Shown: positions 40,566 through 45,311 of the stretch, in pieces | Layout of the letters: each line of letters begins with the position of its first letter | How positions within the stretch are numbered: position 1 is the first letter of the stretch | Origin: Nitrospinota bacterium | GTDB lineage: Bacteria; Nitrospinota; Nitrospinia; Nitrospinales; VA-1 | Length of the DNA stretch: 64,000 nt | NCBI GenBank assembly: GCA_027619975.1 | Contig: JAQCGX010000002.1 | Coordinates: 1-64,000 of the forward strand | Reading direction: 5' to 3' | Notes under the pieces: model-generated | Told to the model about the DNA's origin: nothing | Databases searched by the model: none | What the model saw: the letters and a program-made list of their open reading frames with translations, nothing else | Translations under genes and position numbers: made by a program

Positions 40566-41501
40566 TTATTTTGGTAGAATTTCTTTAACGGCCCGGATTA
40601 TATGGGTGGATGACAGGCCATACTTTTCAAATAATTCTTCAGCCGTCCCCGTTTCAGCAAACTGATCTTTCACGGCAATTCTTTTCATCGGGACATGAAT
40701 ATTATTATCCAGAAGGACTTCTCCAACGGCATCACCCAAACCGCCAATGCGATTATGATCTTCTGCAGTGATCACCGCGCCGTGTTCTTTGGCCAGCCTT
40801 GCGACCAACTCCGCGTCGATGGGCTTGATTGTGGAAATATTTACTAATGTTGGCGAGATATTTTCCTTTTTCAATTCCTCAATTGCCTTCATCGTCTCCT
40901 GGATCATGATGCCAGTCGCAAATATGACAACATCTTTGCCCTTTTGGAGAACGTGGCCCTTGCCAATCTGAAATTTATGGGAAGAATCGTAAATGCCTTT
41001 TACTTTCGCTCTTCCAAATCGCAGGTACATGGGGCCTATGTGATTTGCGGCGGCATGCGTTGCCTGGCGGGCCTCTTCCCAGTCAGCCGGTTGAATGACA
41101 ATTATATTGGGAATAGCACGCGTGTAAGCCATGTCCACGATCATTTGCGCCGAGGGACCGTCTTCACCTACGGACATTCCAGCGTGGGTTCCCGCCAGCT
41201 TGACATTTGTGTTGGAATAGGCAACGCTCACCAGGATTTGGTCCATGGAGCGGCCTAAAAGAAAACAGGCGAATGTGGTCGCGAATGGAATTTTTCCTGT
41301 CGTGGCCAGGCCAGCGGCGGTGCAGACCATGTCCCCTTCCGCGATTCCCATATTAAAAAAACGTTCAGGGAATTGCTTTCCAAATGGTTGCGTCCGGGAA
41401 CTATCGCTCACGCCGGCATCCAAAACGACAACGTTAGGGTTTTTTTCTCCTAATTCAATAAGGGCCGCGCCATATCCGTCCCTGGTAGCTCCGTCTTTCA
41501 T
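40566..41501 (-). CDS. Transketolase, C-terminal subunit
   Basis: 311 residues holding the pyrimidine-binding and C-terminal domains of transketolase: DAGVSDSSRTQPFGKQFPERFFNMGIAEGDM, THAGMSVGEDGPSAQMIVDMAYTRAIPNI and a TIKPIDAELVARLAKEHGAVITAEDHNRIGGLG region. Split transketolases need the N-terminal partner, encoded just before it with a four-base overlap. The pair transfers two-carbon ketol groups in the pentose phosphate pathway. Confidence 0.92.
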   Translation of the reverse strand: MKDGATRDGYGAALIELGEKNPNVVVLDAGVSDSSRTQPFGKQFPERFFNMGIAEGDMVCTAAGLATTGKIPFATTFACFLLGRSMDQILVSVAYSNTNVKLAGTHAGMSVGEDGPSAQMIVDMAYTRAIPNIIVIQPADWEEARQATHAAANHIGPMYLRFGRAKVKGIYDSSHKFQIGKGHVLQKGKDVVIFATGIMIQETMKAIEELKKENISPTLVNISTIKPIDAELVARLAKEHGAVITAEDHNRIGGLGDAVGEVLLDNNIHVPMKRIAVKDQFAETGTAEELFEKYGLSSTHIIRAVKEILPK

Positions 41502-42367
41502 TGCAGCTCCTTCAATGCTTTTTCTAAATCCTCATCGGAAGGCGCAACTCCGTGCCATGCTGTTTTACCTTCCATAAAACTGACTCCTTTACCCTTTATA
41601 GTGTCCGCAATGATGACACGGGGTTTATCCGCGTGTAGCGGAAGGTTGAGAGTTTGAACGATATCCTGCATATTGTGACCATCAATTCGGTGGGTGTCCC
41701 AGCCGAAAGCCCGCCATTTGTCTTCTATAGGTTCCAGGTCTTTGAGTTCCGCAGTCACGCTATCCTGACAAACCTTGTTGTAATCGACGATGGCGATCAG
41801 GTTGTTGGTTTTAAATTTAGCCGCAGACATAGCCGCTTCCCAGATTTGCCCCTCCTGAGTTTCACCATCTCCCAGGACGACATAGACCTTGCAGTTTTTT
41901 TTATCCAGCCGGGTTCCTAGAGCAATTCCATGACCGACACTCAACCCCTGCCCCAAACTGCCGGAGGCGATTTCCACTCCGGGTGTTTTGGGATGTGCGT
42001 GCCCGGAGAGAAACAGCGGGCTGTTGATTTTTCGATAAGTTGCCAGCTCCTTTTCAGCGAAATACCCTGCCCTGGCCAGAGCAACGTAATACAAAGCCGA
42101 TGCGTGCCCCTTGCTTAAAATAAACCGATCCCGGTCCGGGTCGCGGGGATTTTCGGAATCATATTTCATGATTCCTCCAAAAAATAAAGCTGTCACGATA
42201 TCTGCGGCGGAAAGACTGCCGCCAGGATGTCCCGACCCTGCCCCATGAATGGTTATCAAACTTTTACGTCTGATTTCCAGGGCGATGTTTTTTAACTCGT
42301 TAATTGTCGGGGGTGCCGACGAGGCGCTTGTCATAGGGATGCTTTGGTGTAAAGGATTGGAAATCAA
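41498..42367 (-). CDS. Transketolase, N-terminal subunit
   Basis: 289 residues with the thiamine diphosphate domain: GSGHPGGSLSAADIVTALF, SKGHASALYYVALA, GSLGQGLSVGHGIALG and the ThDP motif GDGETQEGQIWEAAM...NN. The listed TTG has AGGA about five bases upstream, while an ATG 11 codons on has none; both remain possible. It is the first gene of the operon with the C-terminal subunit and lies behind the promoter and inverted repeat at 42374-42414. Confidence 0.92.
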   Translation of the reverse strand: MISNPLHQSIPMTSASSAPPTINELKNIALEIRRKSLITIHGAGSGHPGGSLSAADIVTALFFGGIMKYDSENPRDPDRDRFILSKGHASALYYVALARAGYFAEKELATYRKINSPLFLSGHAHPKTPGVEIASGSLGQGLSVGHGIALGTRLDKKNCKVYVVLGDGETQEGQIWEAAMSAAKFKTNNLIAIVDYNKVCQDSVTAELKDLEPIEDKWRAFGWDTHRIDGHNMQDIVQTLNLPLHADKPRVIIADTIKGKGVSFMEGKTAWHGVAPSDEDLEKALKELQ

Positions 42368-42373
42368 AATTTT

Positions 42374-42414
42374 CCTAAGACTTATATCATATTAATTTAT
42401 CTTAGGGAATCCAA
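42374..42414 (-). promoter_or_regulatory. Transketolase promoter with overlapping inverted repeat
   Basis: On the minus strand TTGGAT (-35, 42414-42409) and TATGAT (-10, 42391-42386) are 17 bases apart. An inverted repeat CCTAAGA (42374-42380)/TCTTAGG (42400-42406) is centred on the -10 box. This is an operator-like arrangement in which a bound dimer would block or remodel the promoter. The nearest regulator gene is the HTH-receiver protein directly upstream. Confidence 0.5.
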
Positions 42415-42507
42415 TTCTAATTGAGCTTTTGAACTACAAGCAGGGAATGGAATGCCTGGCGAGTGAGAGCTGAAACTTTAATCTCTTTCTGTAAGGTTAT
42501 GAGAAGA

Positions 42508-43134
42508 TCAACTCTTTCCATTGACGCCGACAAATTCGTTGCAGACATTGAGGAGGGTTTCGAAATCCACCGGTTTGGTGAAATAAATGTCAGCTCCGGC
42601 ATCCAGGATAACCTGTTCAGAGTGTCGCAGATCACCTGAAATCGTGACTATTTTTATATTTCCGGTTTTGGGATTAGATTTTAAATTTTTGCAAACTTCC
42701 ATCCCGTTGATTCCCGGAAGTGCTATGTCGAGAATAATAATGGAAGGCATGAATTGAGCCGCTTTCAAACCCGCATCCCATCCATCAAAAGCTAGCTCGA
42801 CCACGTAATTATTTTTCTCAAAAAACTTTTTCAGAAGATTAGAAAATTTCTTTTCATCATCCACAATTAAAATTTTCCGGACCGATTGCTTCTCTTCTTC
42901 CTGCTGAAGGATATCCTTGATCATGCTTATGGTGTAGCCCTTCTTTTGGAGAGCGTAAACTTTTTTACAACGCTCTTCCACCCACGCCGGATAATAACCC
43001 ACGATCCCCTTCCCTCCTGGATGGGCTTCCTTTACGGGGTCTGGGAAAAACCCGTATTTCTTCTGCCATAACCAAAGAGTTTTTCTAGTGATGGGTACAA
43101 CTTTTAAAATGTCGGCGGCTGTTACTCTGGTCAT
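42508..43134 (-). CDS. MerR-like HTH plus C-terminal receiver-domain regulator
   Basis: 208 residues in an unusual order. The N-terminal 75 residues are a MerR/winged-helix DNA-binding unit (ITRKTLWLWQKKYGFFPDPV, YYPAWVEERCKKVYALQKKGYTISMIKDIL). A receiver domain follows (about 87-205) with the acidic pocket Asp92/93, the phospho-acceptor Asp136 in IIILDIALPG, Thr/Ser in TISGD and Lys187 in TKPVD. Typical response regulators have the receiver first. No kinase is next to it. It precedes the transketolase operon on the same strand and is a candidate for binding the dyad there. Confidence 0.85.
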   Translation of the reverse strand: MTRVTAADILKVVPITRKTLWLWQKKYGFFPDPVKEAHPGGKGIVGYYPAWVEERCKKVYALQKKGYTISMIKDILQQEEEKQSVRKILIVDDEKKFSNLLKKFFEKNNYVVELAFDGWDAGLKAAQFMPSIIILDIALPGINGMEVCKNLKSNPKTGNIKIVTISGDLRHSEQVILDAGADIYFTKPVDFETLLNVCNEFVGVNGKS

Positions 43135-43715
43135 GGTATTTCCCTGAATTTCGTTAGATTAATATTGGTAAAAAGGTAACTGAATAAATCATATAAGCCC
43201 AAAGCTGGAAACGGTTTTTTCAGTAACTTCTATCAAGGGCTTTGTTGCGCAGTGATTCTTTCTATTAACTCTTCACTATAATATTACACAGTTAATGTAA
43301 CTTTACAAATATAAATTTTCAATTTTCTTTATATTTTCATTTAAAGGTGCTCAAATTAATTGAAAAATAGGACTTTATCTTAAATAAAAAATTATATACA
43401 ATAACTCACATAGATAAATTCAAACAACGAACTTTCATGGACCAGTCCCCATTTTGGTCCCTGACCAAGCTGACTTAAAAGTCTGTTTTGTCTGGATTAT
43501 ATTGCCTGTGGATTGCCCTTTACCAGGTGTGAAACACAGGTGGATGGTGGAAATAGTTGGGAGATAAATTCTCTATTATCGAAGAAAATTTCAGCCCCCT
43601 GCCCTTTTTCTTAAATTACGGCTAAGAGCAGAGTTTAAGTTTCAACAAATGTATTGCTGTTTTAATTATTTAACTAATTGGTCAATTATTTATAGATGAT
43701 GGAGATGAAAGTGCC
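43135..43715. other. Gene-free spacer upstream of the export cluster
   Basis: 580 bases, AT-rich in the first 300, separating the divergent HTH-receiver gene and the TolC operon. It contains a GGACCA (43439-43444)/TGGTCC (43455-43460) hairpin. No gene, repeat copy or known riboswitch was seen; promoters for both directions must be here. Confidence 0.5.
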
Positions 43716-45311
43716 ATGTGTCGCAAACTCCCTGCAATAATCATTCTGAGTTTTCTTTCCTTTTCAGTCATTTTTCCATTTTCTGCCCTGTGGGCGGTGG
43801 AATCTGCAACCGACATGCCTTCTGAAGACAATTTGCATTTTCTGACGTTAAGGGAAGCCATTGAGCAGACCCTGAAAAATAATGTCACCATCGCCGTTGA
43901 GGAGTTCAATTCAAAAATTCGAGCCCAGGATATCATTGACAGGAAATCCGAGTTCGACCCCAGTGTCGCTATCGAACTGTCTACCGGAGAACAAAAAAGA
44001 CAAGCCTCCGGTGCCTTTTCTTCGCCCGACGAAAGCCGAGCCCGCGATCACGCCTGGGACCTGTCCCTGAAACAAAAAGTGATCACGGGTGGTGATTATG
44101 AAATCAACTTCAACAATGCAAGAGACAAGACCAATTCCGCATTTGCCGGCTTGAATCCGCAATATTCTTCAGAGCTTATTTTGTCGGCCACCCAGCCGCT
44201 GTTGAAAAACTTTGGCTTTGACAATAATAAAAGAAATATTTATATCGCCAATAATGACCAGGACATTTCGGAATTTGAATTTGAAGGTAAGGTGATCGAC
44301 ACCGTCACCGCAATGGAAAACGTTTACTGGGAGCTGGTGTTCAGTATCGAAGACCTGAATGTGAAAAAGAAGTCTTTAAAAAGAGCGCAGGATCTTGAAA
44401 AACGGGTGCGTGCTCAAGTGGAAGTGGGAACCGTCGCGCCACTTGAAATTCTTCAAGCCCAATCGGAAGTGGCTTCTCGCGAAGAACTCCTGCTTCAGGC
44501 CGAGGATCTGATTCAGGACAATGAGGATAACCTGAAAAATATTTTGAATATCAATTTTGACTCTCCAACAGGATTAAAAAAAATGGTTCCTGCGGACAAA
44601 CCGCAATTCAAGCCTGAGGAAGAAAATTATTTAAATGAGCCTATCAAGGAAGCCTTGAAGAATCGTCCCGATTACCTGTCCCGAAAAACTACACTGGCAA
44701 ATGAAAATATTCTCGTTAAATACAATGAAAATCAGGTTTATCCTTCCGTGGACCTATTTGGCAGTTTGGGGCTGAACGGAATCAGCGGAGATGCGGTTCC
44801 TATCACCACCGGAACCATTACTGGCACCAGTCGTTTCGGTGGGGGATATGATACGGCTCTGAATAATACGATTTCAAAGGATTATTATCAGTGGGAAGTG
44901 GGACTTAAGCTCAGCTATCCTTTAGGTAACCGGTCTGCAAAAAGCAAGTTGACGGCCTCCCGTCTGAAAGTAGCTCAGACCCTGCTGGATATCAAGGATC
45001 TTGAAAAAAAGATTGTTGTGGAAGTGAGGGAAGCCGTCCGGCAAATAAAAACAGAGAGCAAGCGGGTGCAGGCCACTCGCATTGCCCGCAAACTTGCGGA
45101 GGAAAAACTAAACGCTGAGGAAAAAAAGTTGGAGGTTGGCTTGTCCACCAGTTTTGAAGTTCTGCAATTTCAGGAAGATCTGGTTGCAGAGCAGAGCAAC
45201 GAGATCCGAGCCCTCATTGATTACAATAAATCAAAAACCAGATTGCGCCAGGTATTAGCCACCACGCTTGACTCCAACAATATCAAAGTGGCGTCAAAAA
45301 CAGATTCATGA
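43716..45311 (+). CDS. TolC-family outer-membrane efflux protein
   Basis: 531 residues with a signal peptide (basic start, hydrophobic to about residue 28, ending SALWA). The protein shows paired TolC repeats: LTLREAIEQTLKNN near 47, the helical ENVYWELVFSIEDLNVKKKSLKRAQDLEKRVRAQVEVGTV-type block, EALKNRPDYLSRK, then the second half RLKVAQTLLDIKDLEKKIVVEVREAVRQI. It would form a trimeric periplasm-spanning channel for the adaptor that follows (four-base overlap). Confidence 0.93.
   Translation: MCRKLPAIIILSFLSFSVIFPFSALWAVESATDMPSEDNLHFLTLREAIEQTLKNNVTIAVEEFNSKIRAQDIIDRKSEFDPSVAIELSTGEQKRQASGAFSSPDESRARDHAWDLSLKQKVITGGDYEINFNNARDKTNSAFAGLNPQYSSELILSATQPLLKNFGFDNNKRNIYIANNDQDISEFEFEGKVIDTVTAMENVYWELVFSIEDLNVKKKSLKRAQDLEKRVRAQVEVGTVAPLEILQAQSEVASREELLLQAEDLIQDNEDNLKNILNINFDSPTGLKKMVPADKPQFKPEEENYLNEPIKEALKNRPDYLSRKTTLANENILVKYNENQVYPSVDLFGSLGLNGISGDAVPITTGTITGTSRFGGGYDTALNNTISKDYYQWEVGLKLSYPLGNRSAKSKLTASRLKVAQTLLDIKDLEKKIVVEVREAVRQIKTESKRVQATRIARKLAEEKLNAEEKKLEVGLSTSFEVLQFQEDLVAEQSNEIRALIDYNKSKTRLRQVLATTLDSNNIKVASKTDS

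Follow-up and report, generated by a model that had tools for sequence, protein, structure and literature searches.

The window, that is, the whole 64,000-nt stretch of DNA that was analyzed and in which all positions are counted, is part of a 2.93-Mb draft genome (G000) from a relative of Nitrospina, a genus known for nitrite oxidation. It carries a gene for a regulator composed of a MerR-type winged HTH domain and a receiver domain (REC). Immediately downstream on the same strand are tktN and tktC, which encode the two halves of a transketolase, and a divergent gene for an outer-membrane efflux protein (OEP) lies on the regulator's other side. The positions of these genes, and of the promoter elements and candidate sites associated with them, are given in Table 1.

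Table 1. Genes, protein domains and candidate regulatory elements at the locus (window positions, except for the last line).
Feature	Position	Strand	Basis or remark
MerR-type HTH-receiver (REC) regulator gene, 208 aa	42508..43134	-	Pfam MerR_1 and Response_reg
MerR-type winged HTH domain, aa 1-85	42880..43134	-	AlphaFold2 model, VIA-align, Foldseek
Receiver domain, aa 86-203, with D92, D93, D136, S166, K187	42526..42879	-	Pfam, structure model, alignment
tktN, transketolase N-terminal half	41498..42337	-	PF00456; ATG at 42337 taken as start
tktC, transketolase C-terminal half	40566..41501	-	PF02779 and PF02780; 4-base overlap with tktN
Divergent outer-membrane efflux protein (OEP) gene, conserved neighbor	43716..45311	+	PF02321
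Dyad CCTAAGA-N19-TCTTAGG	42374..42406	.	Exact, but at chance level and not conserved
Extended -10 TGA-TATAAG of tktN promoter	42381..42389	-	TGnTATAA(G/A/T) in 28/41 loci; top conserved spacer word
Candidate autoregulatory operator TTACATTAACTGTGTAA, core TTACATTNACNGT at 43288-43300	43284..43300	-	Conservation, genome pattern scans
Probable regulator promoter region around the candidate operator	43281..43308	-	-35/-10 register uncertain in window copy; clearest in g14
Second site, upstream of cheX	L152:2820-2832 (G000:C26:5819-5831), same place in L153-L156		Exact copy, around TTGAC(T/A) -35-like box

In the window copy, MerR_1 (PF13411) was matched at residues 15-78 with 23.5 bits against a cut-off of 21.6, and Response_reg (PF00072) at residues 88-197 with 78.8 bits. 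Both profiles were also matched at E <=0.01 in all 37 aligned orthologues, and the order of HTH followed by REC was the same throughout the alignment. A preliminary description of this locus had placed a MerR-like DNA-binding part ahead of the receiver, and the positions of the two Pfam matches agree with this. It had also called the domain order reversed. That is correct for response regulators, in which the receiver typically comes first, but not for the MerR family, whose proteins carry the DNA-binding domain at the N-terminus in the passages of PMC9909328 cited here. Its N-terminal winged HTH (VIA-align Z up to 11.7) is of the MerR-family type, and its receiver holds the acidic pair, phospho-Asp, Ser/Thr and Lys of response regulators.

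The full 208-residue model had a mean pLDDT of 89.3 and includes a predicted helix (residues 69-83) between the HTH and the receiver. The fold search with the full-length model returned only receivers among the matches listed, and the HTH was therefore modeled (AlphaFold2, pLDDT 92.1) and searched separately. VIA-align matched the HTH to CadR (Z 11.7), TnrA (11.2), GlnR (11.1), CarH (5c8e, 9.9) and CvkR (8.9). Foldseek placed CvkR (7xn2) first (TM 0.78, E 0.012), with CarH 5c8f at an equal E of 0.012. The receiver model matched receivers in the PDB, 3lte among them. Another receiver, PDB 3cnb from Colwellia psychrerythraea, is annotated as 'DNA-binding response regulator, merR family' and is 30% identical over 119 alignment columns; 3cnb is a chain of receiver length only, and the likeness is one of receivers.

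CarA and CarH join an N-terminal MerR-type domain to a C-terminal B12 (cobalamin-binding) sensor. The window regulator has the same general layout of an N-terminal MerR-type domain and a C-terminal sensor, but the sensor is a receiver rather than a cobalamin-binding domain. Structural matches to CarA/CarH were 5c8e (Z 9.9) and 2jml (Z 7.1), and the sequence match to 2jml was weak (E 0.55). Response regulators of the OmpR/PhoB and NarL types have the phospho-acceptor set of the receiver in common with the window regulator; unlike in those types, its output domain, a MerR-type HTH, stands N-terminal to the receiver. Among the matches listed in a literature search whose scope left most subscription journals outside, no title or abstract opening concerned a MerR-receiver regulator of transketolase.

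The HTH is better conserved than the receiver, with a mean pairwise identity of 84% compared to 60% (666 pairs from 37 orthologues). The segment PITRKTLWLWQKKY (residues 14-27), which includes the recognition helix, is identical in 36/37 orthologues. Within the receiver, D92, S/T166 and K187 are kept in 37/37 and D93 and D136 in 35/37. L085 and L092 have Asn in place of the phospho-Asp, and L092 and L036 have lost one residue of the acidic pair (all three are from genera g7 and g9); the HTH is still conserved in these proteins. A loss of phospho-control is possible in all three. G020, also of genus g7, does not have the regulator gene. Since D136 is replaced by Asn in g7/g9 and the gene is missing from a g7 genome, phosphorylation may perhaps have become dispensable in these few genomes before the gene itself did. 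No kinase was found among the subset of window neighbors given to Pfam.

The regulator was matched at E 1e-25 in 39/60 genomes searched, the window's own included, and in 26/30 high-quality genomes. These matches came from all four sampled families of the order and from 0/5 genomes of other families of the class. The HTH alone, at E 0.001, was found in 44/77 genomes of the phylum, all of them in this order, and in 0/13 from other families. The loci are related to each other and the counts are not independent. Of 17 additional loci, L038-L046 apparently duplicate genomes already present under G handles and were not counted, and L047-L054 match mainly the receiver. Named loci with closely related regulators came from Nitrospinaceae, Nitrospinota and Nitrospina assemblies and from one labeled Nitrospirae. 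Outside the phylum, the HTH was found in 4/198 genomes in a sample of one other phylum and in 0/7 genomes reached through loci, a sample unable to show absence. The loci from the four genomes with a match (L191-L195, phylum of G078) encode a similar MerR-type HTH with longer C-terminal parts, which by eye look PAS/cyclase-like rather than like a receiver.

In each of the 39 loci examined, tktN lies directly downstream of the regulator on the same strand, which bears out the previously proposed link to the split transketolase at the level of gene order. The tie between regulator and transketolase is one of position. The efflux gene was present on the regulator's other side in 29/39 loci and was not found in the fetched flanks of the other 10, several of which are short or masked. 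Other families of the class provide four loci (L096-L099) that have the tktN-tktC pair but not the regulator. There the pair adjoins genes that by eye resemble ftsE/ftsX, in place of the regulator and efflux gene, and in L097 and L098 a single open frame (636 and 633 aa) contains both transketolase halves.

The preliminary description had drawn attention to a dyad, CCTAAGA-N19-TCTTAGG, in the spacer between the regulator and tktN, and had proposed it as an operator. The dyad is present and exact. However, when this 170-nt spacer was dinucleotide-shuffled, 177/500 shuffles had perfect arms of at least 7, as did 113/376 window tiles, and arms matching at 9/10, as in this dyad, were found in 80/500 shuffles and 69/376 tiles. 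In 27 other loci with the promoter element, between 0 and 4 of the 7 arm positions were complementary at the same offset from the promoter, and L009, the nearest relative (protein 93% identical), had 2/7. A search of the window's own genome, which had been suggested as a check for the dyad near other genes, gave four places at <=2 mismatches, this one included, compared to 17 when the pattern was read backwards as a control, and all three of the further places had the full 2 mismatches. The six words that hold an arm of the dyad (the left arm at the start or the right arm within) ranked 47th-140th of 163 in conservation. The dyad was rejected as an operator on the shuffles, the other loci, the own-genome control and the low conservation rank.

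The same spacer does contain a conserved promoter. In an unguided scan, TATGATATAAG ranked first of 163 spacer words in conservation. The extended -10 is absent in that form from 13/41 loci, with genus g14 reading TGTTA(A/G)AAT. A 17-base-spaced promoter had been reported here: TTGGAT and TATGAT can be read 17 apart and there is a real promoter at this place, but TTGGAT agrees with TTGACA at only 3/6 positions. The -10 box itself had been misplaced, as the conserved -10 lies five bases away from TATGAT and the TTGGAT/TATGAT pair was not listed by the promoter scan. A scan of the window gave no terminator-like site between the regulator and tktN on their strand.

Two relatives allow the tktN promoter to be viewed apart from the regulator. 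In G017 (L094; 97% complete) and G020 (L095; 84%), the regulator is missing and the efflux gene adjoins tktN, and the HTH was not matched anywhere else in either genome; on sequence, both loci are natural deletions of the regulator. The extended -10 is kept in both, and G017 also keeps the TTTCAATTCGCAAAA element of its genus. These elements are therefore not there for the regulator, or at least not only for it, and the tktN promoter is therefore not evidently the regulator's target. The persistence of this promoter suggests that control of tkt by the regulator may be weak or absent. Two other candidates in the spacer were rejected as regulator sites. The TTTCAATTCGCAAAA element upstream of the tktN promoter in g6/g8 is also present in the regulator-less L094, and the motif TTACATTNA(C/A)NGT, described below, was matched in the 39 loci with 2-4 mismatches at best, a level that shuffles also reached. 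Direct binding in the spacer by that motif is therefore unsupported.

Other elements were observed near the tktN -10 in individual genera. The conserved element TTTCAATTCGCAAA lies upstream of the -10 in L016, L017, L019, L021-L024, L093 and L094, with one change in L018; in these loci, of genera g6/g8, its distance from the extended -10 is variable, and it is present also without the regulator. Some g8 genomes (L017, L019, L021) have an inverted repeat, e.g. GGACACAATTTTGTGTCC, just after the -10 and near the expected transcript start. This repeat shows a partly paired change between species.

A better candidate operator was found upstream of the regulator itself. It was first recognized by reading the regulator upstream regions and was then recovered by an unguided 13-mer scan, in which TTACATTAACTGT came out as the most conserved among the 288 13-mers of the region before the window regulator, with <=2 mismatches in 35/35 other loci; in the shuffled control no word exceeded 6/35. 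Exact TTACATTNACNGT was present 55-185 bp upstream of 33/39 regulator starts, always in the same orientation, although the site is linked to the regulator gene and this co-occurrence is partly trivial. Of the six other loci, five depart once from this sequence, three of them (G037, G040, G050) reading TTACATTGAATGT and two (G009, G030) having one mismatch, and the sixth (G005) is masked with N. The set of 39 leaves out G019, whose copy is cut at the start, and includes G015, a fragment with the start only. The site forms a near-palindrome centered on N, TTACATT-N-A(C/A)NGT, and the form found in genus g10, TTTACATTGAATGTAAA, is palindromic about its central base. From its strong conservation in the regulator's own promoter region, TTACATTNACNGT is probably a better candidate operator than the dyad.

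Across 60 genomes, exact TTACATTNACNGT was matched 66 times, 33 times at the regulator and 33 times elsewhere, compared to 52 matches for a backwards-pattern control. The matches elsewhere do not exceed the control, as expected of a dedicated site, and a regulon of TTACATTNACNGT in these 60 genomes was rejected. The longer form TTACATTNACNGTNTAA gave 13 matches and no control matches in the same 60 genomes. Twelve were upstream of the regulator (in G008, where the gene is split, on the contig with its start); the thirteenth, in G023, was not near a recognized regulator copy.

The position of the site relative to the promoter is clearest in g14, where in 5/5 loci the near-palindrome TTACATTNA(C/A)NGT fills the 17-bp spacer of TTGTT(G/A/C)-N17-TATAAT; elsewhere the register is uncertain. 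The best-scoring spacers ranged from 15 to 20 and were 17 in 18/36 loci and 19 or 20 in 7/36, with an uncertain register in many, and in 3/5 loci of the window's genus g1 the best-scoring -10 overlaps the site. A spacer of 17 bp is the optimum for polymerase and MerR activators use 19-20 bp, as described in excerpts of PMC9909328. The regulator promoters do not appear to have the 19-20 bp spacer of classical MerR activators, and repression is therefore favored.

CvkR, a MerR-type repressor of V-K CAST systems with an HTH fold like that of the window regulator (Foldseek TMq 0.78), offers a comparison. In the portions of PMC9938897 cited here, CvkR binds AnnACATnATGTnnT at promoters as a repressor, and the promoters of two of its targets have spacers of 21 and 17 nt. 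This motif and TTACATTNACNGT have common ACAT/ATGT half-sites, separated by one base in the CvkR motif and by three in the candidate site. CvkR differs in having no receiver domain and other targets, and it ranked only 26th by VIA-align (Z 8.9). We regard it as a fair precedent for the half-sites and the mechanism, not as proof.

A second exact site was observed 130-138 bp upstream of cheX in 5/5 g1 genomes, in the cluster cheY-cheX-cheA-cheW, where it reads TTACATTGAC(T/A)GT around a -35-like TTGAC. Outside g1, cheX was clearly recognizable (45-65% identity) at 22 loci, the more distant L188-L190 not being counted. One had an exact site (one of four from g6), three had one mismatch (one each from g12, g6 and g15) and three had two, compared to shuffle expectations of 0.02, 0.16 and 2.6. 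At the remaining 15/22 the site has at least 3 mismatches, and when the sequences before cheX outside g1 were scanned unguided, the site word came no higher than 38th of 288. This excess may reflect only the -35 box. We do not count the cheX site as a conserved target and keep it as a lead.

Taken together, these observations lead us to infer, with moderate confidence, that the protein is an orphan MerR-receiver autoregulator that binds TTACATTNACNGT, most likely as a repressor gated by phosphorylation of D136, from a promoter that probably also feeds tktN-tktC. In this model the receiver would be the sensor part of the protein. The regulator, probably as a dimer, would bind the near-palindrome upstream of its own gene and set its own expression, most likely by repression, and phosphorylation of D136 would change its grip on the site. 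Read-through from the regulator promoter into tktN-tktC is probable because the regulator lies directly upstream and no terminator was found between them; tktN-tktC also has a promoter of its own, with the extended -10 in the majority of loci, that is independent of the regulator. If the regulator controls transketolase at all, read-through is the likely route. Control of pentose flux in this way is possible, and its control by phosphorylation, as proposed in the preliminary description, would be a further step of conjecture.

Several other explanations must be weighed against autorepression. Another transcription factor could own the site, or TTACATTNACNGT could be an unusual RNA polymerase element, with the MerR-receiver protein acting on other targets. 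The overlap or abutment of the site with the core promoter is consistent with this, as is the similar sequence around the -35-like TTGAC before cheX-cheA-cheW in all five g1 genomes. However, a global factor or polymerase element fits poorly with copies elsewhere that do not exceed the control, the site lies directly before the one HTH-matching gene per genome (in G008 the gene is split over two contigs), and its half-sites resemble those of CvkR, a MerR-type protein. We consider this reading unlikely, though it carries appreciable weight. Alternatively, the regulator could distort DNA and so activate both its own promoter and the tkt genes behind it. This is suggested by its MerR-family fold and by the clearest cases (g14), in which the site is flanked by the -35 and the -10, distortion being typical of MerR proteins in the excerpts of PMC9909328. 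The same excerpts give 19-20 bp as the spacing that activation by distortion needs, and the best spacers here are 17 bp in half of the 36 loci scored and in 5/5 from g14, with 19 or 20 in only seven; activation is thus rather unlikely.

It could also be that the adjacency to tkt is historical only and that the outputs, at least in g1, are the regulator itself and cheX-cheA-cheW, a reading that overlaps autorepression where autoregulation is concerned. The exact site before cheX in 5/5 g1 genomes, the excess of exact and one-mismatch sites outside g1 (1/22 and 3/22) and the tktN promoter that is present without the regulator all point this way. Against it, the cheX similarity is largely the -35-like TTGAC itself, the word ranks low and most loci outside g1 have at least 3 mismatches, and matches away from the regulator are not above control overall. 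We think it improbable. More improbable again is a scheme that couples chemosensory signaling to carbon metabolism, in which the regulator would occupy its own promoter at one dedicated site and act on tkt by read-through and on g1 cheX-cheA-cheW, with CheA phosphorylating the regulator in a feedback loop. The original proposal placed the regulator on the CCTAAGA dyad at the tktN promoter, from where it would switch transketolase in response to phosphorylation. This proposal can call on an exact dyad that overlaps a conserved promoter element and on a regulator that is the upstream neighbor of tktN in 39/39 loci. The dyad, however, is at chance level and poorly conserved, both in its arms in the 27 other loci and in the words that hold them, the tktN promoter is retained without the regulator in L094 and L095, and the best conserved site lies elsewhere. 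Non-conservation, which the preliminary description had itself named as a ground for refutation, largely refutes this proposal, and we consider it to have almost no chance of being correct. The unusual protein and the promoter of the preliminary description are both real, but the dyad used there to connect them looks like a chance occurrence.

Replacing that dyad with TTACATTNACNGT exchanges an unsupported operator for a testable one. If autoregulation through this site is correct, the order to which Nitrospina belongs has a conserved MerR-type protein whose input is phosphorylation instead of a metal or drug, paired with close to one dedicated DNA site in each genome. The protein and its site would then be an unusually clean pair in which to study how a receiver gates a MerR-type DNA-binding domain.
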